Source: a bacterium BMS3Abin03 (lineage in GTDB: Bacteria; Bacteroidota; Ignavibacteria; Ignavibacteriales; Ignavibacteriaceae). From it: DNA of 44,365 nucleotides. The stretch spans positions 1 to 44,365 of the forward strand of contig BDSV01000018.1 in the NCBI GenBank assembly GCA_002898075.1, given 5' to 3'. Made by a program: the position numbers and the translations under genes. The notes beneath the pieces were generated by a model. The model was not told the origin of the DNA, did no database searches, and saw only the letters and a program-made list of their open reading frames with translations. This document shows positions 21,479-34,762 of the stretch, piece after piece. How positions within the stretch are numbered: the stretch's first letter is position 1; each line of letters opens with the position of its first letter.

Positions 21479-22138
21479 CTACATATCATGGCAGGTAAAA
21501 CATAACTCGCTTCGTACCATAGTGATTTTAAGCGTTAATCCATTTTTAATTGTTTGTCTTTCATCCATAAAATGAAAGTTGTGACAAGATAAGCAAGAAA
21601 CCTTACCATCTTCCAATAAATCTTCCTCGATAGTTCCACCCAAACCGGATGGAGCTATACTGGGATCTTTTAAGTACTTGTTTTTTTGAGCTAATTGAGT
21701 ATTGTAGATAATTGAAGTTGGATGGTTTAATTCATTAATATAACTCCTATTTTTATTTGAGACATTGAACCCCGAATTCTTTATAATGAAATTATCATTC
21801 GCAATATTTCCATCGTGACAGGAAACGCACATCTTTGTTTGCGAACTGAAAATTATCCCATTATCTTTAGTAATATTACCTGAGAACTCATCAAATTCCC
21901 GAATTACAGAATTGTTATCCCAGCTTAGATAAATACTATTGTTAAGTTTTTCTACTTCTGATTCATGGCAGTAGGAACAAGAATTCATTTCTCCATCTGA
22001 ATACCTTGTTAGTTGATGGGGGTTGTAACTCAAATTTTGATCGTCCGGTGTTGTATCACCCGGGTTCAGCGTGCTGTTGCCGAATGCATATATGCACGAA
22101 CAATATGATAAAACAATTAGAACCCCAAAAAGCTTCAT
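21479..22138 (-). CDS. Secreted tetraheme c-type cytochrome
   Basis: Signal peptide; CSYCH, CVSCH, CLSCH, CFTCH; DPSIAPSGLGGTIEEDLLEDGKVSCLSCH. Confidence 0.88.
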   Translation of the reverse strand: MKLFGVLIVLSYCSCIYAFGNSTLNPGDTTPDDQNLSYNPHQLTRYSDGEMNSCSYCHESEVEKLNNSIYLSWDNNSVIREFDEFSGNITKDNGIIFSSQTKMCVSCHDGNIANDNFIIKNSGFNVSNKNRSYINELNHPTSIIYNTQLAQKNKYLKDPSIAPSGLGGTIEEDLLEDGKVSCLSCHNFHFMDERQTIKNGLTLKITMVRSELCFTCHDM

Positions 22139-22664
22139 TTTAATAAGATAGTTTTAAATAATTCATTTAAATTTGAGCTTGTCATACAGATTAATGTCAA
22201 ACAGTATTCTACTTAATGTAGAACAGACAAATTCCCTGCCTTTATTTTTTTATTTGGTGAATTTTAAATCGAACAATAATGATGAGTTCGAAGAATAATC
22301 ATTTAGATGTGTCTAATGCTTTATCAATAGCAATTATTGGCATCTGGTTCGAGTATAATTATGAGAAGCTTCGTTTTATGGAATAGTGAAAATCAAATAT
22401 TTATCCTCTTTTGCACTTTATATCACACCGTGCAGTAAATTCAATTGTTGCCGAACATTCTTTGTTTGAATTATCGATAAATTAATGGGGCAAATGTTGA
22501 TTTTATACAAAGTTAAATGAATTGAGATAAGAAAATCTCGGATCGATCGTTATAAATCGGATGAAAGGAAATAAATACAAATTTATCCTGTAATATTTAC
22601 TACTATTAACCAGGCAATTATTTACTGTGCATTTAATTTTTGGAGAAGTCATAATATAATTCCT

Positions 22665-22792
22665 ATTTGGTTTTTGGGTTTTTCCATGTTCTTCTCTCTT
22701 TTTACCTATCCCGACTTTTGCGGGAAGAGAGATTAGAATATGTTCATTAAAAAATCAAAATCCGAAAACCAAATTACAAATAGACTGAATGA
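22665..22792. mobile_element. MITE-like element B with terminal inverted repeats
   Basis: atttggtttttgggtttttccatgttctt ... gttcattaaaaaatcaaaatccgaaaaccaaattacaaatagact; both ends match element C. Confidence 0.75.
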
Positions 22793-22871
22793 TTTTTTTT
22801 TGTTGCCGGAATAATATTAGAGAACTTCAGTATAAGAATTGAGTTGAACAAGTTTTGAATAAGTGAAAGAG

Positions 22872-22903
22872 AAAAAAAAAGCACTGCCGAGGCTCGACAG
22901 TGC
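22872..22903 (-). terminator. Rho-independent terminator for the pentaheme cytochrome gene
   Basis: Minus-strand agcactgtcgagcctcggcagtgctttttttt: stem AGCACTG/CAGTGCT plus T run. Confidence 0.85.
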
Positions 22904-22926
22904 TATTAAGTATTGTATATACGAAA

Positions 22927-23610
22927 TTACTTATTATGACAGGTTAAGCAGAGTGCGCTCTTATCATTCGGAATTTTCAATGATAAACTTCTGGTAGTCA
23001 TTCCTCCATGTACAAAATGGCAACCGGAACATCCCTGTGTATTTCTTGATATGTGAACATCATGACACGAAATGCAACTTAATTGTCCGTTATCGAGCAG
23101 ATCTTCCTCAATAGTTCCACCCAATCCGGATGGGGTTATACTCGGATCGTAAAGTCCACCATCGACCTGCGATAATTGCGTATCATAAGTAAATGAAAGA
23201 GGGTGATCATTTCCCAAATTAGTACCTAAATTACCAAAGGTAACATAGTGGGTACCTCCGGTAAATCCACCATGGTTCTCAATAGCAACTGTTCCGTCAT
23301 GACATGATAAACAAAGTTTCGTTTTGCCGGTCGGTTGACCGGGGTTACCATCCATCGTTTCGCTGGAATATACTTGAAACGTTGCAACAGTATTCTGATG
23401 ATTCCATAATGGTGAATCGGGAACTTCCATATTTGCATTATGAGGAGTGTGGCAAGGACGACAAATCCTGTTGCCGCTCCAGGCAGCACCGCTGAAATCG
23501 TGATGGCTGTTTTTAATATCGATATAAAGTATTTCACCCGAAAGATCGGCTTGTTGATTAATTACCGGAAAAACAATAAAGAATAAAACAATCAATATTA
23601 CTCTTTTCAT
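22927..23610 (-). CDS. Secreted pentaheme c-type cytochrome
   Basis: Signal peptide; CRPCH, CLSCH, CISCH, CSGCH, CLTCH; paralogous to 21479-22138 and 28418-29029. Confidence 0.9.
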   Translation of the reverse strand: MKRVILIVLFFIVFPVINQQADLSGEILYIDIKNSHHDFSGAAWSGNRICRPCHTPHNANMEVPDSPLWNHQNTVATFQVYSSETMDGNPGQPTGKTKLCLSCHDGTVAIENHGGFTGGTHYVTFGNLGTNLGNDHPLSFTYDTQLSQVDGGLYDPSITPSGLGGTIEEDLLDNGQLSCISCHDVHISRNTQGCSGCHFVHGGMTTRSLSLKIPNDKSALCLTCHNK

Positions 23611-23662
23611 TTTGTCCCCTATAATATGTTTATAAATTAAATTTAATCATTTTATTTAATGC

Positions 23663-24676
23663 TTACCTTGAATAACTTCTTTGTTCATGGCAGCCCGGTA
23701 AACAAGAGCCGCCGTTTTTAGTAGGTTTATAATTCAGTTTCATAGTCCAACTGCCAAATTTAATCTCGGTTTCAATCAAATGTTTGTTTGCAGAACCGTG
23801 AACATCATGACAATTAGTACAGCTTCTGCTTTTTTCTCTGTTAACGTGAACGAAATGTAGATTAGTATTACCGTTTCTAAACTCGGTAGCAGTGGTTGTT
23901 TTTTTATTTAATATCTTCGAATCGTCATGACAATCAAAACATAGGCTATAATTATCATCAAATTTCTGCGCATAGTGCCCTTCCGGGAAAGTATCATTCA
24001 GTAAATAATTGTTTACCGATGAGTGAGGATTATGACAGGTAAGGCATCCGTCATCAACAACAGGTGGATGGGCTAAGTCTTCATTTACAATTTTAATCGC
24101 AATATTCGGTATTACCTTATCTTCATATTTAATTTCTTTATTATGACATTTCAAACAGAGAGCAGGATCTTCTTCCTTAAGCAGCTTCCTGTTTTTAGAA
24201 GAATGAGGTGAATGACAGTTAATACATTTACCTCCCACGAACATAGCACCGTGAATTGTTTTAACATTTTTTATTTCTCCGGGATCGTCGTGACAGGAGA
24301 AACATAGGTCGGGAACAGGGTCTTCCAAAATAAATTTATTATTCGATGAATGAGGATTATGACAATTCAAGCAGTCCTCTTCGAAAGGTGGGTGAATACT
24401 TTTTTGCGAAGCATCCGGCTCTTTATCATCGTGACAAGTATAACATAATTCTGGTGATTCATCGACTAATGAAAAATCGTTCCCGTTTTCTGACGGATGC
24501 TCAACTGTTTCGCTTTCATGGCAGCTAGTGCAGTCATCTTCAGCGGCAGGATGAATAAATGCCGCACTAACTAACTTATAATGACAACCGGGTGCAGTAC
24601 ATCCTTTTTCAGTCTGACCAACCATATTATAGTTTATAGAAAGACTCAATAGCATTATGGTTATAATAGTTTTCAT
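23663..24676 (-). CDS. Secreted multiheme c-type cytochrome (9 CxxCH + one CX4CH + one CX3CH)
   Basis: CTSCH, CYTCH, CLNCH, CFSCH, CINCH, CLKCH, CLTCH, CFDCH, CTNCH; plus GCTAPGCHY and SCLPGCHEQ. CxNCHxPHSS repeats. Confidence 0.93.
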   Translation of the reverse strand: MKTIITIMLLSLSINYNMVGQTEKGCTAPGCHYKLVSAAFIHPAAEDDCTSCHESETVEHPSENGNDFSLVDESPELCYTCHDDKEPDASQKSIHPPFEEDCLNCHNPHSSNNKFILEDPVPDLCFSCHDDPGEIKNVKTIHGAMFVGGKCINCHSPHSSKNRKLLKEEDPALCLKCHNKEIKYEDKVIPNIAIKIVNEDLAHPPVVDDGCLTCHNPHSSVNNYLLNDTFPEGHYAQKFDDNYSLCFDCHDDSKILNKKTTTATEFRNGNTNLHFVHVNREKSRSCTNCHDVHGSANKHLIETEIKFGSWTMKLNYKPTKNGGSCLPGCHEQRSYSR

Positions 24677-24687
24677 ATAATTTCCTG

Positions 24688-26667
24688 TCAGAATCGTCTT
24701 CCAATTCTTAAATAGAGCTTATTATAATTAACCTTTTCATTCGAAAAGTTCCTGAAAAAATTTTCATATCCCAAAACTATTGTGATATTTCTGAATTGAG
24801 TTTCGAATTCAGACCTAACAGAATAAAGATCCAGATTGATCCCACGCCCGTTCTGAAACCTTGTATTAACAATTAGATCAAATTTAGTTACCGATGAAAA
24901 TAAATAACCGAGTCCGCCTGTTCCATACCTGTATATTTGTCTTTCAGACTCTTTAGTAAGAAAATAATCTCTATAATTACCGGAAACATTAAATTTTAAT
25001 CTATTAAAAAAAACGGTGCGTATATCAATGAAAAACTGTGATGACTGATAAGGAATAATATTACTGTTGTAATCGTCAAACTCGAAACCTACTGTTATAA
25101 AGTCGATAGTTGTTTTTGCACCAACAATTCTTTGGTTAAAATATTCGAGCACGTTAAATCCGACACCCTGAACCCGCTTGTAATCGAAATCTCTATAGGA
25201 GAAGTATACATCGAACAAATTATATAGAAAAGTAAGACCAACTGTAAAATTGTTGCCTGTGGCTGTATAATTAAAATCTTCTCTGAAATCAAATTCATAA
25301 TCAACGTACACCGTTGCTCCGTCCGGAATTTGACCACCGGGAATGCGTACAATTTCAGTAAATTCACCTCGAGGTATAAGAAGATAATCCAAATTCTCTA
25401 CATAGATATATGTATCCTTAAAATCCGTAACCACAACTGATTCGAGAATTACATCCGGATTATCGAGCAGTTCAATAGTGCCGTCGGTCAACGAATGTTC
25501 TTCATCTAAGATTAACTGAGTTCGACTAGCTTGTGATGCACGATCTACTCCCCGTAATCTGTATTCATAGTTTAATCTGAAAATACCGGTTGGAATTTTC
25601 TTCTGATATTTGAACCCAACTGTTGCCTGGTTAATTACCTCATTATAAAATGTCTGCCTGCTATCTGTGTACTCATAACTTAAATGGGATCGCAAACTAT
25701 TGAATAGCTGATGCTCAATGGTTCCGGTCAAATAATGCTGCAGCGATTTGGCAAAAGAATATATGAGATCATGGAACTGATACCTTCCATTTAAGCGAAT
25801 ACTCTTGATGGGTTTAGATATAAGGGAATGTTCAAACTGTATTCTTCTATATGGTTGTGATCCGATTTGCTTATAGTACCAAAATTGATAATTGTAAATA
25901 TTTCGCTCCTCATCAAAGATAAATCTGCTATTTAAATTAAGTGTTAATATCTGGTTTTTAACAGAAATATCATTTGCATACGTCCTGAAATAATCTTCAT
26001 AAGAAGCGGTTACTACATTTTCATTCCAATCCGATATTCCTTTATCTAGTCGTAGATTAATATTATTACGCGTGCTCTCAAACTTCCTGTCGAATTGAAG
26101 CTCATTCTGTTTCCACGTACTATGTAAGTACGATAAAGTAGCAGGCAAAGAACTATTTCTAAACGCCAGGTATGTTCCGGCATTAAATTGATAAGATTCA
26201 ACATCGGTAGTTAATTCACGGCTGATAAATCCATGGTTATAATTGGTAAATATTTTAAATGATACCATTCTTTGGTTAAAAAAGTTTAGGTTTAAATTCA
26301 TCCTTTCTGCTGTCCGGGTATCAGTACGGTTAGGAGCAACAATAAAATTATTTTTTTGGGTACCCGGAGCAAAACCCAGATCTAAGCCAATCATTAAGAA
26401 ATTTGGATGTAAGAGGTAACTGGTTGAATAGATATTTATCTCGCCGCTGAACGCCCCGGATTTCTGTTCCTCTCTGAATCCCGTATTTAATTCATTTTTC
26501 TGAGACCTGTAATCGCCCCGCAAAAACAGATTCCCTCTAAATGAAGTAAGGTGAAATCCTCCCCACCCGTTGCCGTTTTTAAATTTCCTTTGGGAATATA
26601 AATTTCCGGCTGCAATTGTAGTTAATAAAAATATGAATAATACAATATTTAATCTTTGGTAAATCAT
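24688..26667 (-). CDS. Putative outer-membrane beta-barrel (porin component of cytochrome conduit)
   Basis: Signal peptide; 659 aa dominated by alternating aromatic/polar strands; terminal Phe (LYLRIGRRF); no Cys; embedded between multiheme cytochrome genes. Confidence 0.75.
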   Translation of the reverse strand: MIYQRLNIVLFIFLLTTIAAGNLYSQRKFKNGNGWGGFHLTSFRGNLFLRGDYRSQKNELNTGFREEQKSGAFSGEINIYSTSYLLHPNFLMIGLDLGFAPGTQKNNFIVAPNRTDTRTAERMNLNLNFFNQRMVSFKIFTNYNHGFISRELTTDVESYQFNAGTYLAFRNSSLPATLSYLHSTWKQNELQFDRKFESTRNNINLRLDKGISDWNENVVTASYEDYFRTYANDISVKNQILTLNLNSRFIFDEERNIYNYQFWYYKQIGSQPYRRIQFEHSLISKPIKSIRLNGRYQFHDLIYSFAKSLQHYLTGTIEHQLFNSLRSHLSYEYTDSRQTFYNEVINQATVGFKYQKKIPTGIFRLNYEYRLRGVDRASQASRTQLILDEEHSLTDGTIELLDNPDVILESVVVTDFKDTYIYVENLDYLLIPRGEFTEIVRIPGGQIPDGATVYVDYEFDFREDFNYTATGNNFTVGLTFLYNLFDVYFSYRDFDYKRVQGVGFNVLEYFNQRIVGAKTTIDFITVGFEFDDYNSNIIPYQSSQFFIDIRTVFFNRLKFNVSGNYRDYFLTKESERQIYRYGTGGLGYLFSSVTKFDLIVNTRFQNGRGINLDLYSVRSEFETQFRNITIVLGYENFFRNFSNEKVNYNKLYLRIGRRF

Positions 26668-26677
26668 TTTTTAACAT

Positions 26678-27256
26678 TTACAACAAAAATCTATCTTCGC
26701 CTCCGTGTGGATTATGACATTCAATACAATTAGTATCATCAATATCTTCATGAACTTCATTTTTAAACACGTCACTTTTTTCATGGCAGTAAAGGCAAAG
26801 TTCCTGCCCCTTCCTTTTTAATAATTTCGGGAGTTTACTTGAGTGCGGATTGTGACATTGAGTACAATAGCCGGAAGCCACCGGACCGTGCAAAACCGCG
26901 AACTGATTATTAAAATCTTCGTGGCAAGTATAGCAAAGTTTCGGCGGCTGTTCGATCAGTTCGTTTCCGGCTTGCAGGTTATGACAGTTGTAACACTCCC
27001 TTGCTTGATACGGAGGATGAAAGAACATCTGCTGAACAACTCGTTTTTTATTGTTACCCTGCTTCTTTTTATTTTCATTACTAACAAGTAATGAGTCAGC
27101 AGCCAGTTTTTCATTCTCACCCTGTGGTACCCCGTCAAAAAAAATCGATAGTATCTTTTTCCCTTCGCTCGACGAGCAGGAAAAATTTATAATTAAAAGT
27201 ACCGACAACAGAACAGTATAAATCAAATAACCATATATAAACTTTCGCATTTTCAT
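26678..27256 (-). CDS. Pentaheme c-type cytochrome lipoprotein
   Basis: Lipobox INFSCSSS; CYNCH, CYTCH, CTQCH, CLYCH, CIECH. Confidence 0.9.
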   Translation of the reverse strand: MKMRKFIYGYLIYTVLLSVLLIINFSCSSSEGKKILSIFFDGVPQGENEKLAADSLLVSNENKKKQGNNKKRVVQQMFFHPPYQARECYNCHNLQAGNELIEQPPKLCYTCHEDFNNQFAVLHGPVASGYCTQCHNPHSSKLPKLLKRKGQELCLYCHEKSDVFKNEVHEDIDDTNCIECHNPHGGEDRFLL

Positions 27257-27265
27257 CGAAGCGCA

Positions 27266-28330
27266 TCATTTCTTCTCATCTACAAAACCATAAACATTAA
27301 TTTTCTCGGGTCCGTACTGGTTTGTAACAAATATCAGATACTTCAGATCAAATCCTTCGTAAACGTATTTTTGGAAATATTTAAGGTTATCATAATCGAT
27401 AATAACTTTTGCCGGCAGCCACATATCACCCGGTTTCACATACGGTCCACCGAAAAACATTAATAAATTCCCATCCTTGTCGAATATTTGTACGTTTTCA
27501 AAACCGGCGTCGACAACAAATAAATTCAAGCTGTCGTCAACTGCAATACCTTTAGGACGAACAAATTGACCTAACCCCGTACCGTACGAACCGACAGAGT
27601 CAATAAATTCACCTTCGGTAGAATAAATCTTAATTCTGAAATCGCCAAAGTCGCTCACGTATAATCTGCCTTGTTTAACATAAATGTTAGTTGGTTGAAA
27701 AACTCTCTCTTTTTCACCAAGGTTTTCATCCGGTAAAGATTTAACCCAGGAATAATCACTGTGAGAAAAAACCTCAATATCTCTGCCTTTTAAATCGGAA
27801 ACGTATATCAACGAGTCTGTAACGAACACATCGGTCGGTTTTTTCAATACATCTTCGCCGAAAGCAGTTAAATAGTTATCTAAGGAATCGAAGACAACTA
27901 TTTGTGCTCTTTCAGCATCGGCTACAAATAACCTGCCGATATTATCTTTAAAACAATTAATAGGTTTTTTAAACTGCCCGAATCCTTTCGGCTGAAAATA
28001 CTGAAATGATTTATCAACGAAATCTAGAATTTCCAGCCCGCCAAGAATAGTATCGCATACATATAATTTACCCTTATAAATCGCTATTCCATACGGTTTA
28101 ATTATATCTGCCCTTTGGGTTTCTCCTGCTACATATTCAACTAATCCAGATTCTTCTCCTGTAACATCGCTAGACGTTGAAAAGCTCGTAAGGTATTGTA
28201 TTTTTGTTGGTTCGGGAGGTGCTGGATATATAATTAAATCATTTTCATTTTTAATTACAGTGGATGATGAACAAGATATCAAAACAAATATAATACTTAC
28301 CAAGCTAAATTTTTCAACTACCCTTTTCAT
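27266..28330 (-). CDS. NHL-repeat (6-bladed beta-propeller) lipoprotein
   Basis: Lipobox VLISCSSS; repeated KPYGIAIYKGKLYVCD..., RPKGIAVDDSLNLFVVDAGFENVQIFDKDGNLLMFFGG. Confidence 0.87.
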   Translation of the reverse strand: MKRVVEKFSLVSIIFVLISCSSSTVIKNENDLIIYPAPPEPTKIQYLTSFSTSSDVTGEESGLVEYVAGETQRADIIKPYGIAIYKGKLYVCDTILGGLEILDFVDKSFQYFQPKGFGQFKKPINCFKDNIGRLFVADAERAQIVVFDSLDNYLTAFGEDVLKKPTDVFVTDSLIYVSDLKGRDIEVFSHSDYSWVKSLPDENLGEKERVFQPTNIYVKQGRLYVSDFGDFRIKIYSTEGEFIDSVGSYGTGLGQFVRPKGIAVDDSLNLFVVDAGFENVQIFDKDGNLLMFFGGPYVKPGDMWLPAKVIIDYDNLKYFQKYVYEGFDLKYLIFVTNQYGPEKINVYGFVDEKK

Positions 28331-28353
28331 TTTATCATAACCTGCTTTTGTTA

Positions 28354-28379
28354 ATAAAAAAGGGCGCCTAAACGCCCCT
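28354..28379 (-). terminator. Rho-independent terminator for tetraheme cytochrome gene 28418-29029
   Basis: Minus strand aggggcgtttaggcgcccttttttatt: GGGCG/CGCCC stem plus T run. Confidence 0.8.
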
Positions 28380-28417
28380 GTTTAAGAATAATTGTTTATT
28401 AAACCCCAAATACAGAA

Positions 28418-29029
28418 TTATTTATTGTGACATGTTAAGCAGAGAGCACTTGTTGCATTACTTTTTACAAGAAATTTTGCAACAGTATCATCATGCGGGT
28501 TGTGGCAGGAGGCACATTGTAACTTTCCACCGAAGAGCATATCTTCATCTATTGTACCGCCAAGACCAGAGTTAGTATTTGCCGGATCAAACAATCCGCC
28601 GTCAGCAGTGGCTAACGTTGCATCATAAGTAAATGATACAGGATGATCGTTACTTAAATCTGTTCCAATAAGAGCGTCACCGGAAACATGTTCAGTTCCA
28701 GCCGTATTCCCACCAAAATTATCAATTGCTACTGTTCCATCGTGACAGCTAAGGCATAATTTAGAATAGCCATCCGGTTGAGATACTGTAGCATTTAGTG
28801 TAGAAGAACTATAAAGAGTAAAAGTTGCAGTTGTAACCTGGTGGTTCCATAGAGGTTCGGGTGGGTTAGTATAATCTTGAACGTGAGGTGCATGGCAAAT
28901 CACACAAATTTCTCCACTACTGTTCCAAGTTGAATCGGAGAAATCGTGAGCGGAACCAGTGATGCTTTGTCCGAAAACAACACCGGTAAATGCAAGTACC
29001 ACGGCAAAATAGAGAATTGAGCGAAGCAT
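28418..29029 (-). CDS. Secreted tetraheme c-type cytochrome
   Basis: Signal peptide; CVICH, CLSCH, CASCH, CLTCH; CHAPHVQDYTNPPEPLWNHQ...LCLSCHDGTVAIDNFGG. Confidence 0.9.
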   Translation of the reverse strand: MLRSILYFAVVLAFTGVVFGQSITGSAHDFSDSTWNSSGEICVICHAPHVQDYTNPPEPLWNHQVTTATFTLYSSSTLNATVSQPDGYSKLCLSCHDGTVAIDNFGGNTAGTEHVSGDALIGTDLSNDHPVSFTYDATLATADGGLFDPANTNSGLGGTIDEDMLFGGKLQCASCHNPHDDTVAKFLVKSNATSALCLTCHNK

Positions 29030-29072
29030 TTTATCCTCCTTAGATATTTATTTTTAGTTAGTTATTATCGAA

Positions 29073-29480
29073 TCAGCCCTCGGGTAAAACACTAAAATCC
29101 TTTACCTTTCGGCTATCCTCTAAAAAAATTGAAATTTTCTTTACTTCATCAAATAGAAAGTTTTTATCCAGATACCCATCTGCAATCTTTTCTGCAGATT
29201 GGTATTCACCAAATCTTTTTCCGTCCATATTCATCAATACCACAAAAACGCTTTGGTATTTTTCCTTTATGTAATTCACTGTTTTTATTGCTTCGTAATC
29301 TGCAAGATCAATATTTATAAGAATAAGAGATGGAATAAACTGTGCACAAATCTTTTTCAGTTCGTCAAGATTTAATGCAAGCCCGGCATATAATAAATTA
29401 TCGGTTTTTTTCATTGATTCTTTAACCAAATCAACAAACTTTTTATCATTATCAACTATTATTGTAGGTAATTTATTCAT
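29073..29480 (-). CDS. Stand-alone degenerate receiver (pseudo-receiver) domain protein
   Basis: TIIVDNDKKFVDLVKESM...PSLILINIDLADYEAIKTVNYIKEKYQSVFVVLMNMD...IADGYLDKNFLFDEVKK: REC-like layout, phosphoacceptor Asp apparently Asn. Confidence 0.7.
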   Translation of the reverse strand: MNKLPTIIVDNDKKFVDLVKESMKKTDNLLYAGLALNLDELKKICAQFIPSLILINIDLADYEAIKTVNYIKEKYQSVFVVLMNMDGKRFGEYQSAEKIADGYLDKNFLFDEVKKISIFLEDSRKVKDFSVLPEG

Positions 29481-29652
29481 CTCTGTATAAAACTGTTATC
29501 AATTTTGTTACCAACATAACATTAATAAGCAATAAAGTAAATTCCCCGAGTATGGGTATTTTTCATATAAATTTATTACCCCTTTGAGTAATATTTTAGT
29601 TATTATAGAATAACCCTTTAGGGCTATTGTATTATTAAATAGAGAATTTGTC

Positions 29653-30315
29653 TCATATCAAGCCGTTGGCAATCGCATAACTTATAACTTCATTAAAGTT
29701 TTTTGCATGAAGCTTTTTAATAATATTTTTTCGATGTTTAACAACGGTGAATGGACTAATAAACAGTTTTTCAGCAATTACTTTGCTCGTATAACCTTCA
29801 GAAACAAGTTTTACTACTTCTAACTCACGTTTTGTTAAGGGGCTCGACTGGGTAGTTTCCTGGTAGAATTCGCTTATGTTTTTGCCGGTATGATAATCTA
29901 TTATCTTTTTTGTTACCTCTTTGTTAAAGTAATCTTCCCCTTCCATAACCTGTTTGATAGCCGTAACAAGTTCGGTTATTTCGGAGTCTTTATATATGTA
30001 GCCATTAATTCCTGCAGTGAGCGCTTCAAAAATAAATCTTTCGTTGTCGAGCATTGTAAGTATTATTATTTTTACATCCTTGTTAAATTCTCTTATTTGT
30101 TTTGCTGCTTCAATTCCATTCAGGTTAGGCATATTTATATCCATCAGTATAAGTTCCGGCATTAACTCTTTTGTTTTTTCAACTGCTTCGTTTCCATCGC
30201 CAGCTTCACCAACAATGTCTATATCATATTTGCTTTCAAGAGCAAGTTTGAATCCCTGTCGTACCCATTTATGATCATCAACAAGCAGGACTTTAGTTTT
30301 ACTCATCTTTATCAT
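29653..30315 (-). CDS. NarL/LuxR-type response regulator
   Basis: KVLLVDDHKWVRQGFKLAL...PELILMDINMPNLNGIEAAKQIREFN...IILTML...YIYKDS; C-terminal LTKRELEVVKLVSEGYTSKVIAEKLFISPFTVVKHRKNIIKKL. Confidence 0.95.
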   Translation of the reverse strand: MIKMSKTKVLLVDDHKWVRQGFKLALESKYDIDIVGEAGDGNEAVEKTKELMPELILMDINMPNLNGIEAAKQIREFNKDVKIIILTMLDNERFIFEALTAGINGYIYKDSEITELVTAIKQVMEGEDYFNKEVTKKIIDYHTGKNISEFYQETTQSSPLTKRELEVVKLVSEGYTSKVIAEKLFISPFTVVKHRKNIIKKLHAKNFNEVISYAIANGLI

Positions 30316-32023
30316 CCTTTAATGGAATAGCAAAATATATTTCTGTTCCCCTGCCCGGTTCTGATTGGATTGAAAATTCTCCACCGGATATTTTAGTTCG
30401 CTCCCGCATAGAAATTAATCCATATCCAATATCCAGTATGGTTCCTTTGTCTGTATCGTTAACATCGAATCCTACACCATTGTCTTTTACTGACCCCCGA
30501 ATCATCCTCGAGTTAAAATGCAGGTCAATTTGTACCTCGGTTGCATTTGCATGCTTTGAAATATTATTTAAAGCTTCCTGAATTATCCTGTAAACATTCA
30601 GCTCAATTTTTTTATTGCGTACTTTAACGTTACCGAATACGTTAATCATAGCTTTTATATGCGTAACATCGGAAAATTTATGTGCCATCAATTGAATAGC
30701 ATCTGTTAAGCCATAATTATCAAGTTCGGCTGGTCGTAAAGAAAAGATTATCGATTTAATATCTCTGCTTATATCGATAATTTGTCTTTTAGCCTCTTCT
30801 ATCTTCTCGTTGTTTTCAAAAGTTTTTTCTTCAATCATTTCGAGACCAAGCTTCGCAAGAAGTAATTTTTGTCCTATCTGATCGTGAAGCTCTTTAGCAA
30901 CACGTTTTCTGTCCTGCTCAAGAATATCAATTACCGCGCTGCTTATTCTTTTCTGAAGATCCAATTCACGGTTTATATCTTCTCTTTGAAGCACATCCGT
31001 TCTATCCTCCAGTTGACAGATTATTCTGTTCACTTTACCCTTTTCATCTTTTATATCAAAAATATTAAAGATATAAACTTTCTCTTCCTCTTCCAATAAA
31101 ATAGGTTCGGTTTTAAGTCGTCCGCCTTTACGTATAAGATTCTTGATGTGTGACAAATAACCGTGCGATATAAGATATTCATTGTCGTATATATGTATAT
31201 CTCTCACATTGTTTTGGAAAATTTCATTCCATTTCAGATTTGTTTCAATTAATTTTCCTCCCTCATCATAAATAGCAATTGCAAAAGGCGATTGTTCAAT
31301 TAAAGATTCTACCTCCTTTGTTCTGCGGCGTATTTTTATTTCGAGTTCTTCGTTTATTTTCCGCAATACTTCTTCAGACTCTGCTAATTTTTGTTCGGTA
31401 GTTTTTCTTAAAGTAATATCCTTGTTGCTTGCACGATGTCCCAGATATATTCCTTTTGAATCGAATACGGATTGACAGGAGTGTTCAATCCATCTTATTT
31501 GGTTATCCTTGGTAATTATTCTAAAATCAAAGGATTCAAGGTCGGTTTCACATAAAGACTGGATTGTATGCTTGATAAATTTGTCTTTATCCTCAGGATG
31601 AACAATCTGTTCCAAAATAGTATTATCATTCATAAATTCTTCCGGTTTGTAACCGGTTATTCTTTCGGCAGACGGGGAGACATAATTCAACCTCCTGTCT
31701 TTAGTTATCCAGTATTCCCAATCTTTAGCAAAATCGGAAACAAGCTTAAATCTTTCCTGAACTTCCTGAAGATGCGTTTCAACCTTTCTTTGCTTAAGTA
31801 TCAAGTGACTTACAAAAATTCCGAAAATCAAAAAGGTTACAACTATCATTATCCGCTCAAAATGCATATGAGGTGATAGATGGAAGAGCAGAACATTTTG
31901 AAAGGAACTATTAAAAAAGAAAAAGTAGTCTATTATTGCATCGAATATCCAGCTTATAATGCCAAAAATCAGAGCAATAAGTATTATATTGAACCTGATT
32001 TTATTTGTTTTACTTAGTTTCAA
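30299..32023 (-). CDS. Membrane PAS-domain sensor histidine kinase (HisKA_3 / NarX-type)
   Basis: Two N-terminal TM helices; PAS/PAC modules; DRKRVAKELHDQIGQKLLLAKLGLEMIEE; HATPase VKDNGVGFD...GYGLISMRERTKISGGEFSIQSEPGRGTEIYFAIP; 17-nt overlap with the response regulator gene. Confidence 0.95.
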   Translation of the reverse strand: MKLSKTNKIRFNIILIALIFGIISWIFDAIIDYFFFFNSSFQNVLLFHLSPHMHFERIMIVVTFLIFGIFVSHLILKQRKVETHLQEVQERFKLVSDFAKDWEYWITKDRRLNYVSPSAERITGYKPEEFMNDNTILEQIVHPEDKDKFIKHTIQSLCETDLESFDFRIITKDNQIRWIEHSCQSVFDSKGIYLGHRASNKDITLRKTTEQKLAESEEVLRKINEELEIKIRRRTKEVESLIEQSPFAIAIYDEGGKLIETNLKWNEIFQNNVRDIHIYDNEYLISHGYLSHIKNLIRKGGRLKTEPILLEEEEKVYIFNIFDIKDEKGKVNRIICQLEDRTDVLQREDINRELDLQKRISSAVIDILEQDRKRVAKELHDQIGQKLLLAKLGLEMIEEKTFENNEKIEEAKRQIIDISRDIKSIIFSLRPAELDNYGLTDAIQLMAHKFSDVTHIKAMINVFGNVKVRNKKIELNVYRIIQEALNNISKHANATEVQIDLHFNSRMIRGSVKDNGVGFDVNDTDKGTILDIGYGLISMRERTKISGGEFSIQSEPGRGTEIYFAIPLKDDKDE

Positions 32024-32079
32024 TTTATTAGTTTAATACGTATTGAACGATATATTTATCCCGGGATATAATCTCTAAT

Positions 32080-33765
32080 CTATGGATATCTTTTGGGATT
32101 ATGTTGTCTTCTGTGACACCTTAAATAACATCTTCCGGCAAATGTACCATCATCAATAAATTCTAATCGACCCATCATTGCGGGCTGTACAATTGATATA
32201 TCAAAATTTATAAGATGAGTATTATTAGTTGTATTACCTTGAGAACTGCTTATTCCGTGTGGATCGTGACATACATTACAGGGAGTTCTTATATTTACTA
32301 TATGTTTTTTATGTTTACTGAAGCTTTCATTATTTAAAATCGAATTGCGGTCGTGGCACTGGTAACAAAGTTCATAAGCTAAATAAGATTCCTGAGTATA
32401 ATCTGCTGTTTCGTAATTATATTTTAAGATATGTGGATAAATTGAACCGTGAGGTCCCGCGGGTGCGTTCGAACCATTGCTTGCATGGCAATCGGTACAG
32501 TAAATTACACTCGATTCGGATAAAGGAGAAATCAGACTCGGTACATTCGGATTAGCTCCCTGACCTTCTATCGGATGATATGATGGATTACCAATATCGA
32601 ACTCTAGCCTAACATTACTTTGTTCAATCTGCCGGGTTGTCGGGCTTCCGGGCTTATCGGGGCTATCTGCATGACAACGGTAGCAGAGTTCGTATTGATA
32701 CTGAATTTCAGAAACCGGATTACCGTCAGCATTAACTCCCTTTACACCTTGAATAAATCCGTTTGCGTCGGGAGGATTTGCCGTAACATCATTTACAGCA
32801 TGTGGATTGTGGCAATCTGCACACTCCACGTGTTTGATTTGTACAATGTTCGGCTCTTCAGGATCATGAATACCGTTATATGCAGCTACGTTATGACTGT
32901 ACGGTTTGTTTAATTCTGATTGAATATTTTTATTAGCCACGTTACCGTTGTGGCAAACAAGACAATTATTTTCTTCCGGTGTAAAATTCATCAACCTGAA
33001 TTGACTGCTTGCCGTATGAGGATTATGACAATTTTCACAAGCATTTTCAGTTACGGTTGTATAGTTTGTGTGAAACCAAGGATTTGTGCCGGAGCCGTTC
33101 CAAGTAGCGTTTGAAGTTTTATGAGCTGAATTATTCCAAAAATTCTTTTGATGACAATACAAACAGAGGTTGGAATATTGATTTGTTACAACTAAAAAAT
33201 CTCCGTTCACATTCAAATGTGGATCATGGCATGCCGTACATTCCAAATAACCATCTTCCAACTTAACAGGACCGGTTAATGTGGATGGATCGGCAAGTTC
33301 TCCGTCCTGCGATGCAAGCGTGGAATTATATAAAAATGAAACCGGATGATCATCGGATAAGTCTGTAGAGAGATTTGTTGTTCCGGGTGGCAGGGTAGTA
33401 ATGCCGCTTACAAAAACAATATCGTTTGTTCTGCTCAAAACATTTCCAAGCGCTATCGTTCCGTCATGACAAGAAAGACAAAGAATTGATGACCTGTCCG
33501 GCTGACCCGGATTACCTTGAATAGTTGAACTGCTGTATAAAGTATATGTAACACCTGGATCAGGTTTATTCCACAACGGTGATCGCGGACTGCTATTGTG
33601 CGGAGTATGACAGAAAATACATATTTCGGTTTCTGAAACAGCTTTAATTGTTCCGGGCCCGCTCACAGACAAATTATGCCTGGTACTAACGATAGTTTGA
33701 GAGTAAAAATTAATTCCGTAAGTAAAGAATATAACCAGAAAGAAGAGATGTATTTTACTTTTCAT
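32080..33765 (-). CDS. Large secreted multiheme c-type cytochrome (11 CxxCH + C-terminal CX3CH)
   Basis: Signal peptide; CIFCH, CLSCH, CTACH, CLYCH, CENCH, CLVCH, CADCH, CYRCH, CTDCH, CYQCH, CNVCH, and GRCYLRCHRRQ. Confidence 0.93.
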   Translation of the reverse strand: MKSKIHLFFLVIFFTYGINFYSQTIVSTRHNLSVSGPGTIKAVSETEICIFCHTPHNSSPRSPLWNKPDPGVTYTLYSSSTIQGNPGQPDRSSILCLSCHDGTIALGNVLSRTNDIVFVSGITTLPPGTTNLSTDLSDDHPVSFLYNSTLASQDGELADPSTLTGPVKLEDGYLECTACHDPHLNVNGDFLVVTNQYSNLCLYCHQKNFWNNSAHKTSNATWNGSGTNPWFHTNYTTVTENACENCHNPHTASSQFRLMNFTPEENNCLVCHNGNVANKNIQSELNKPYSHNVAAYNGIHDPEEPNIVQIKHVECADCHNPHAVNDVTANPPDANGFIQGVKGVNADGNPVSEIQYQYELCYRCHADSPDKPGSPTTRQIEQSNVRLEFDIGNPSYHPIEGQGANPNVPSLISPLSESSVIYCTDCHASNGSNAPAGPHGSIYPHILKYNYETADYTQESYLAYELCYQCHDRNSILNNESFSKHKKHIVNIRTPCNVCHDPHGISSSQGNTTNNTHLINFDISIVQPAMMGRLEFIDDGTFAGRCYLRCHRRQHNPKRYP

Positions 33766-34762
33766 CTTTTTTTAATAGTTTGAAAATTTGAATTCTTGAA
33801 TTAAAACTATCCGCTACATAGATATAGTCTTCATCATCAATAAATATACCTGTTGGTAACCAAAATTTACCGTTACCCGAACCTTTACCGCCGAAGTAAT
33901 AGAGAAACTCTCCGTCTTTGTTGTATGCTTGAATCGCATTATAAAGACCATCGACGATAAAAATGTGCCCATAACTATCTACCGCCACACCTTTGGGACG
34001 GGCAAAATATCCGGTAGCATCCCCTGGTTCACCAAAAGTGTTAATAATCTCACCTGTAGGGCTTAAAATCTGCAAGCGGAAATTCATTGAATCAATCACA
34101 TATACTATGCCATTCTTATCTATCCAGATATATGTTGGAAAATTAAATTGCCCCGGTTCGGTGCCCCTGCTGCCAACTACTTTTTTAAATTTCCCGCTCA
34201 TATCGAAAATTGAGATTTGGTGTGATAAAGTTTCTACTACCCAAACTTCTTTGGTAAGAATGTTATACGCTATTCCTGTTGGCTGATTCAATGATTTGTT
34301 TTTAATAAAAGGACTGATAATATCGTCTTTTTCGTTGTACATATAAACCATGTTTTCTTTGGAATCGGTAAATAAATAAACTCCCCTTTTCATCTCACAA
34401 ATGTCAACTAATGAAGGAAAAGTTTTTCCATTACCATTCATTACTATCTGAAATTCTTCCTCTAAAGTATCGATTCTAACAATATAACCCGCCCCCTGAT
34501 CCAATACAAGCAACCTGTTCCAACTGTCTTTAATTACCTTCATAGGTTTGACTAATTGGATTACATCTTCGCCGAATAACCAATCAACGATTTTTTCACC
34601 TATCGATTTATCTTTTACAACATCTTCATTTGTAGAAAAAGAACGGACAAATTCTACTGTAAATTTATCACCCGGTTTATCATTGTTATTTTGTGCTATT
34701 GCTTGAAATACAAATAGGAAGGAAAGAATTATAGAACAATATCTCAAATTAAAAGATGACAT
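33755..34762 (-). CDS. Secreted NHL-repeat beta-propeller protein
   Basis: Signal peptide; FNFPTYIWIDKNGIVYVIDSMNFRLQILSPTGEIINTFGEPG, FARPKGVAVDSYGHIFIVDGLYNAIQAYNKDGEFLYYFGGKG, FWLPTGIFIDDEDYIYVADSFNSRIQIF; overlaps the downstream cytochrome gene by 11 nt. Confidence 0.92.
   Translation of the reverse strand: MSSFNLRYCSIILSFLFVFQAIAQNNNDKPGDKFTVEFVRSFSTNEDVVKDKSIGEKIVDWLFGEDVIQLVKPMKVIKDSWNRLLVLDQGAGYIVRIDTLEEEFQIVMNGNGKTFPSLVDICEMKRGVYLFTDSKENMVYMYNEKDDIISPFIKNKSLNQPTGIAYNILTKEVWVVETLSHQISIFDMSGKFKKVVGSRGTEPGQFNFPTYIWIDKNGIVYVIDSMNFRLQILSPTGEIINTFGEPGDATGYFARPKGVAVDSYGHIFIVDGLYNAIQAYNKDGEFLYYFGGKGSGNGKFWLPTGIFIDDEDYIYVADSFNSRIQIFKLLKKDEK

Follow-up and report, generated by a model that had tools for sequence, protein, structure and literature searches.

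The genes of the OetABI (osc) conduit lie together with those of the nanowire cytochrome OmcS and of OmcX in Desulfobacterota and Geobacter (PMC10553843), and a beta-propeller gene is located near omcS in G. sulfurreducens (PMC3495685). OmcS and another nanowire cytochrome, OmcE, lack sequence similarity to each other (PMC9473688), and the question of how the cell supplies extracellular cytochrome filaments with electrons is open (PMC10954620). Ignavibacteria are already known for conduit clusters of the OmbB or MtrB type (PMC4245776, PMC7399161), and outer-surface electron exchange has been proposed for the cytochrome–NHL clusters of Desulfovibrio ferrophilus (PMC9769857). The subject of this analysis is the gene cluster at positions 21479-34762 of contig BDSV01000018.1 from the Ignavibacteria member BMS3Abin03; the contig, 44,365 nucleotides (nt) long, was analysed as a whole and is referred to as the window. 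With a probability of about 0.7, the cluster is considered to encode a complete outer-membrane electron exit, i.e., a porin–cytochrome conduit plus an extracellular wire of the OmcE type.

The locus comprises 12 open reading frames (ORFs), all on the minus strand, as are all the window features given below: six multiheme cytochromes, a barrel candidate of 659 amino acids (aa), two NHL proteins and three regulatory proteins (a histidine kinase, a regulator of the NarL type and a receiver domain on its own). An earlier note, made from the same DNA, had the strand and the positions of the genes right but counted 11 of them, the one missed being the stand-alone receiver (29073-29480). Its CxxCH counts in the six cytochromes (4, 5, 9, 5, 4 and 11, 38 in total) were reproduced. 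The six-frame scan of the 44-kb window located all 38 of these motifs inside the locus and 0 elsewhere, so their clustering is not a matter of chance; with the conserved CX3CH and CX4CH sites counted in, the heme total of the locus is estimated at ~41. The genes of the NHL lipoprotein, the pentaheme lipoprotein, the barrel and the MtrA-like cytochrome follow one another at distances of 9, 10 and 11 nt; hence, the tight spacing around the barrel stated before (about 11 nt) holds, with the exact values being 10 and 11 nt. Two genes pairs elsewhere in the locus overlap (-11 and -17 nt).

The putative wire component is cyt4c (203 aa; 28418..29029), an OmcE-type tetraheme nanowire cytochrome homologous to OmcE over its full length: in the phmmer search, its residues 11-203 aligned with the OmcE filament 7TFS through to the C-terminus of the latter (E 8e-27). 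Another solved homolog, 9YUQ (E 2.5e-20), contains 16 chains, suggesting a polymer. The four CxxCH motifs of cyt4c are situated at the places matching those of OmcE, and the candidate distal histidines (H28, H49, H129 and H179) are kept in the cassette orthologs and aligned with the histidines of OmcE, so by this alignment each of the four hemes would be ligated by a proximal and a distal histidine.

Three more cytochromes of the cluster display the same kinship. In cyt11, a secreted protein of 561 aa (32080..33765), the N-terminal third is an OmcE-type module (residues 22-207, 33145..33702; phmmer to 7TFS, E 3.4e-31) fused to an 8-heme domain; its 11 CxxCH motifs are complemented by a C-terminal CX3CH, unchanged in all 13 orthologs from the cassettes, which makes cyt11 a putative 12-heme protein. 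The second, cyt5b (227 aa; 22927..23610), is a paralog of OmcE (phmmer to 7TFS, E 1.8e-16), in which the alignment reveals one additional heme motif. The third, cyt4a (219 aa; 21479..22138), is by alignment a diverged OmcE-like tetraheme cytochrome; it is set apart from the rest of the cluster by 788 nt, and its membership in the same transcript is uncertain. No plausible gene was found in the three minus-strand frames of this gap (22139-22926), which possibly represents a decayed gene or a separate promoter. Judging by sequence, an OmcE-type nanowire module makes up the whole or a part of four of the six cytochromes. All the OmcE-type modules found in the genome with cyt4c as the query belong to this cluster. 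The same genome harbors another multiheme locus (G000:C45; L076:3774-6896, L076:16052-18211 and L077), whose cytochromes have 23, 13 and 13 motifs and, in several cases, 6 motifs; there, no OmcE module was detectable with cyt4c.

The conduit component would be formed by the barrel and the cytochromes on both sides of it. The barrel protein (659 aa with a C-terminal Phe; 24688..26667) lacks cysteine. Its AlphaFold2 (AF2) model, built with 13 orthologs, is confident, with a predicted local distance difference test score (pLDDT) of 85.7 and a predicted template modeling score (pTM) of 0.65; it shows ~28 long strands, and residues 384-459 form a small domain inserted into the barrel. In the Foldseek comparison of this model with 350,542 PDB chains, MtrB (6R2Q_B) ranked first (E 4.5e-9, TM score ~0.44). 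Thus, the large outer-membrane beta-barrel characteristic of porin–cytochrome conduits is present by prediction, in line with the barrel character ascribed to the 659-aa protein before. At the same time, no sequence kinship to MtrB/PioB, a comparison the earlier note had left to be made, was detected: no Pfam or NCBIfam family covers the protein, and the barrel profile search of the PDB did not recover 6R2Q_B up to E 10. On the evidence of these searches, membership of the barrel in the MtrB/PioB family was rejected; the designation “MtrB-like large barrel” is supported by the model. Individual barrel orthologs gave weak Pfam/NCBIfam matches (RVP_2, DUF7840, LamB, phage tail tube), which were discounted as scattered. 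The MtrB/PioB search in the own genome and 248 genomes of the phylum gave no match either, with no positive control responding, so it does not demonstrate absence from the phylum. The inserted domain (25291..25518) is the best-conserved part of the protein, which suggests a docking site, and it is a candidate docking platform.

Directly downstream of the barrel lies the co-conserved multiheme cytochrome cytPP (337 aa; 23663..24676), MtrA/DmsE-like and presumably periplasmic. It matched MtrA (6R2Q_A) with E 1.2e-23 as a profile and 4.2e-17 as a single sequence; chain A of 6R2Q is taken here as MtrA, the molecule name in the structure file being wrong. Compared with the DmsE/MtrA decaheme family TIGR03508, cytPP scored 101.9 bits, below the cut-off of 192.2, and it appears related to this family without qualifying as its member. 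On the other side of the barrel, the pentaheme lipoprotein cyt5LP (192 aa; 26678..27256) carries doubled-CxxCH repeats of the MtrA/DmsE kind, and its profile matched 6R2Q_A with E 6.6e-18. Hence, the assignment of both barrel-adjacent cytochromes to a conduit agrees with their match to MtrA. In addition to nine CxxCH motifs, cytPP possesses a CX4CH and a CX3CH, the two extra motifs the note had pointed out. The CX3CH does not vary among 11 orthologs, and in those from Bacteroidales a canonical CxxCH stands in the CX4CH column. Both are therefore probably genuine heme sites, which gives 11 hemes. Orthologs of cytPP have grown from ~11 hemes through inserted doubled-CxxCH units (L012:13636-15213, L013:13647-15242, L011:13619-14923), reaching ~15 hemes in Calditrichota and 19 in Bacteroidales, and the barrel stays at ~655 aa.

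The cassette recurs in other phyla. With the NHL lipoprotein alignment as the query, the scan of genome contigs yielded 16 loci from Ignavibacteria, Kapaibacteria, Calditrichota, KSB1, Bacteroidales and unplaced Bacteroidetes metagenome-assembled genomes (MAGs); a scan of the contigs with the barrel alone gave no match. The order of genes in the complete cassettes is NHL2, the 12-heme OmcE fusion, the two-component system (absent from some of them), OmcE, the NHL lipoprotein, the pentaheme lipoprotein, the barrel, cytPP and, in part of the cases, an OmcE paralog; the plain tetraheme OmcE copy is kept. Independently, the barrel profile was run against 391 genomes of the class; its 13 matches were spread over 11 genomes, and all 13 were flanked by cyt5LP and/or cytPP as far as the contig extends. 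Thus, the co-conservation of the barrel with the cytochromes, for which the earlier note had proposed a synteny search, is borne out, with a single cluster (L022) deviating as described below. Within the genus of the window's host, the cassette is sporadic, the barrel being present in 1/5 other genomes, and the NHL tree, mostly weakly resolved, places L008, a Melioribacter MAG and the window in one group. The base composition (35.3% G+C in the cluster vs. ~36.4% on each side) bears no sign of a recent import. In one Calditrichota MAG, the barrel gene is split into two frames (L015:2677-4685), which is either a sequencing error or a pseudogene.

The likeness to OetABI consists in the conduit genes, the nanowire cytochrome and further extracellular cytochromes being gathered in one cassette (PMC10553843). 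In contrast to OetABI, the wire protein is here of the OmcE and not of the OmcS type, the cytochrome of the conduit resembles MtrA/DmsE, the regular members include two NHL propellers and the 12-heme OmcE fusion, and the host phyla are different. With MtrCAB of Shewanella (6R2Q), the locus shares the large barrel and the MtrA-like cytochrome, MtrB being the top fold and MtrA the top sequence match. The MtrB barrel has 26 strands, whereas ~28 are predicted here in a barrel without detectable sequence kinship to it, and OmcE-type proteins occupy the place of MtrC, of which no full homolog is found in the cluster. The OmcE of Geobacter sulfurreducens (7TFS) is matched by cyt4c over the full length, with the same order of heme motifs and the same positions of distal histidines. 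The Geobacter gene is predicted to be monocistronic (PMC1829397), whereas here the putative wire protein of the OmcE type and its three paralogs or fusions sit with a conduit. The OmbB-type porin–cytochrome conduits follow the same logic of a porin with a periplasmic and an outer-membrane cytochrome (PMC4245776, PMC7399161), but their porins are OmbB-like or MtrB-like; the word search of these two papers returned no mention of NHL proteins. Finally, the D. ferrophilus clusters DFE_0448-0451 and 0461-0464 resemble the locus in combining multiheme cytochromes with NHL propeller genes, but no apparent porin–cytochrome conduit was reported for them (PMC9769857). The earlier characterization of the locus as a conduit of different composition was right but incomplete, since it missed the OmcE-type modules in four of the six cytochromes and the layout shared by several phyla. 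What is newly recognised, from comparison of sequences, is the OmcE homolog cyt4c, the fusion of an OmcE module in cyt11 and the recurrence of the cassette across phyla. The papers found in the open-licence literature describe neither an OmcE-linked conduit nor this cassette, although an earlier description is possible.

The remaining genes encode propellers and regulators. NHL2 (335 aa with a signal peptide; 33755..34762; NHL PF01436, E 6.7e-17) is a secreted NHL-repeat propeller, which opens the cassette in Ignavibacteria, Calditrichota, KSB1, Bacteroidales and Kapaibacteria. The NHL lipoprotein (354 aa; 27266..28330), the one found in the 16 loci, has the lipobox LISC; a scaffold role of both propellers is a guess. 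By the domain search, the regulators include a histidine kinase of PAS-PAS-HisKA_3-HATPase architecture (574 aa, no CxxCH; 30299..32023) and a NarL-type response regulator with a receiver and a LuxR/GerE helix–turn–helix (29653..30315). The stand-alone receiver (135 aa; 29073..29480; Response_reg, E 1.9e-7) is kept in the sister genome L006. In the sibling clusters that possess an NtrC-type pair, its kinase has an invariant CxxCH just before the second predicted membrane helix (15/15: L010:5781-7256, L011:6144-7637, L012:5565-7076 and 12 further loci); these kinases are probably c-heme redox sensors, as the invariance of the motif suggests. In the window lineage, the CxxCH-less PAS kinase with the NarL-type regulator replaces the NtrC-type pair at the same position.

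A second subtype of the cluster was encountered in other genera, some of them from the window's own family (L067-L075). It features an NtrC-type pair, an 8-heme cytochrome, an NHL protein, an OmcE-like tetraheme cytochrome, a barrel-like protein of ~560 aa and another NHL protein, along with a 10-12-heme cytochrome with an OmcE module and a 13-motif MtrA-like cytochrome, not all of them being present in each locus. Its shorter barrel candidate is different from the window barrel, the profile comparison indicating a remote kinship (E 7e-6, probability 84.5%). In the Kapaibacteria clusters, the MtrA-like cytochrome is followed by a large gene, which in L017 (15569-17848) encodes a cytochrome c assembly protein (CcmF/ResB-like); in L056, L058, L059 and L060, the gene at this position was judged from its size and position. 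The last gene of the Calditrichota cluster L011 (15632-18400) encodes a 19-heme protein that includes a cytochrome b561 domain, a candidate quinol-linked input. The occurrence of such genes in some clusters is as expected for a quinol-linked input; several c-type cytochrome maturation genes are present in the window's genome as well.

In the mechanism proposed, periplasmic carriers would receive electrons from the quinone pool and pass them to cytPP, which may run through the barrel in the manner of MtrA inside MtrB and carry them across the outer membrane, with the pentaheme lipoprotein residing at one mouth of the barrel. From cytPP, the electrons would pass to the surface cytochromes (the OmcE-type proteins, cyt11 and cyt5LP are the candidates) and further to the OmcE-type filament, presumably polymerised extracellularly from cyt4c in the way of OmcE and conducting by heme-to-heme transfer. 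The natural candidate for the conduit–filament junction is cyt11, which would join the two, its OmcE module capping the wire. The NHL propellers might hold the surface parts, and the regulators would turn the set on whenever the cell requires an extracellular acceptor. A bolder “wire plus socket” version envisages a distinct barrel family with an MtrA-like core, the OmcE module of the 12-heme adaptor starting or capping the filament to give one continuous heme chain, and a single system with several subtypes in Ignavibacteria, Kapaibacteria, Calditrichota, KSB1 and Bacteroidales; this version is tentative and somewhat less likely than not.

Several points weigh against the exit as a whole. The localisation of the proteins is deduced from signal peptides and lipoboxes. 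The margin of MtrB over TonB-dependent receptors and LptD in Foldseek is modest (4.5e-9 vs. 2.4e-8), and the 13 barrel orthologs gave no MtrB/PioB (PF11854) match in Pfam and NCBIfam up to E 1. In cluster L022, the barrel is not immediately followed by cytPP. Since omcE is predicted to be transcribed alone in Geobacter, OmcE need not be linked to a conduit (PMC1829397), and the physiological role of cytochrome filaments is disputed (PMC11077965). Homology to OmcE is by itself no proof that cyt4c polymerises, and its heme-free AF2 model is poor (pLDDT 46, no usable fold), presumably because heme is absent from AF2. Hence, the OmcE-type cytochromes might be separate surface or secreted carriers forming no filaments next to a porin–cytochrome conduit, the more so that cyt5b, cyt4a and cyt11, with an altered heme number or fusion, look like non-filament variants. 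This is nevertheless unlikely in view of the full-length match of cyt4c, its histidines aligned with those expected to ligate the four OmcE hemes, the 16 chains of 9YUQ and the plain tetraheme copy kept in the complete cassettes.

The direction of the flow is not readable from sequence, and heme chains conduct in both directions. The related Mto/Pio systems oxidise Fe(II) or minerals (PMC12016527), so the same hardware might serve for electron uptake through the wire and the conduit, the source being Fe(II), metal, a partner cell or an electrode. Such an inward flow seems somewhat less likely still. The 19-heme/b561 protein ending the sibling cluster, which we take to resemble the CbcL-type quinol-oxidising exits, speaks against it. 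A multiheme respiratory enzyme, periplasmic or secreted, that acts on a soluble substrate and is accompanied by an unrelated barrel transporter would suit a barrel named by no family model and with TonB receptors and LptD as its next Foldseek matches, but it is highly improbable: neither a catalytic subunit nor a cofactor domain is encoded in the cluster, MtrB leads the fold matches, the cytochromes on both sides of the barrel resemble MtrA, and the barrel and the cytochromes were inseparable in the independent genome search.

Taken as a conduit joined to a wire, the gene set may show how extracellular wires plug into the cell. The co-inherited OmcE-type subunit, the OmcE-module fusion and the MtrA-like core represent concrete candidates for the junction, and linked conduit–nanowire systems would extend to phyla for which none was described in the open-licence literature found.

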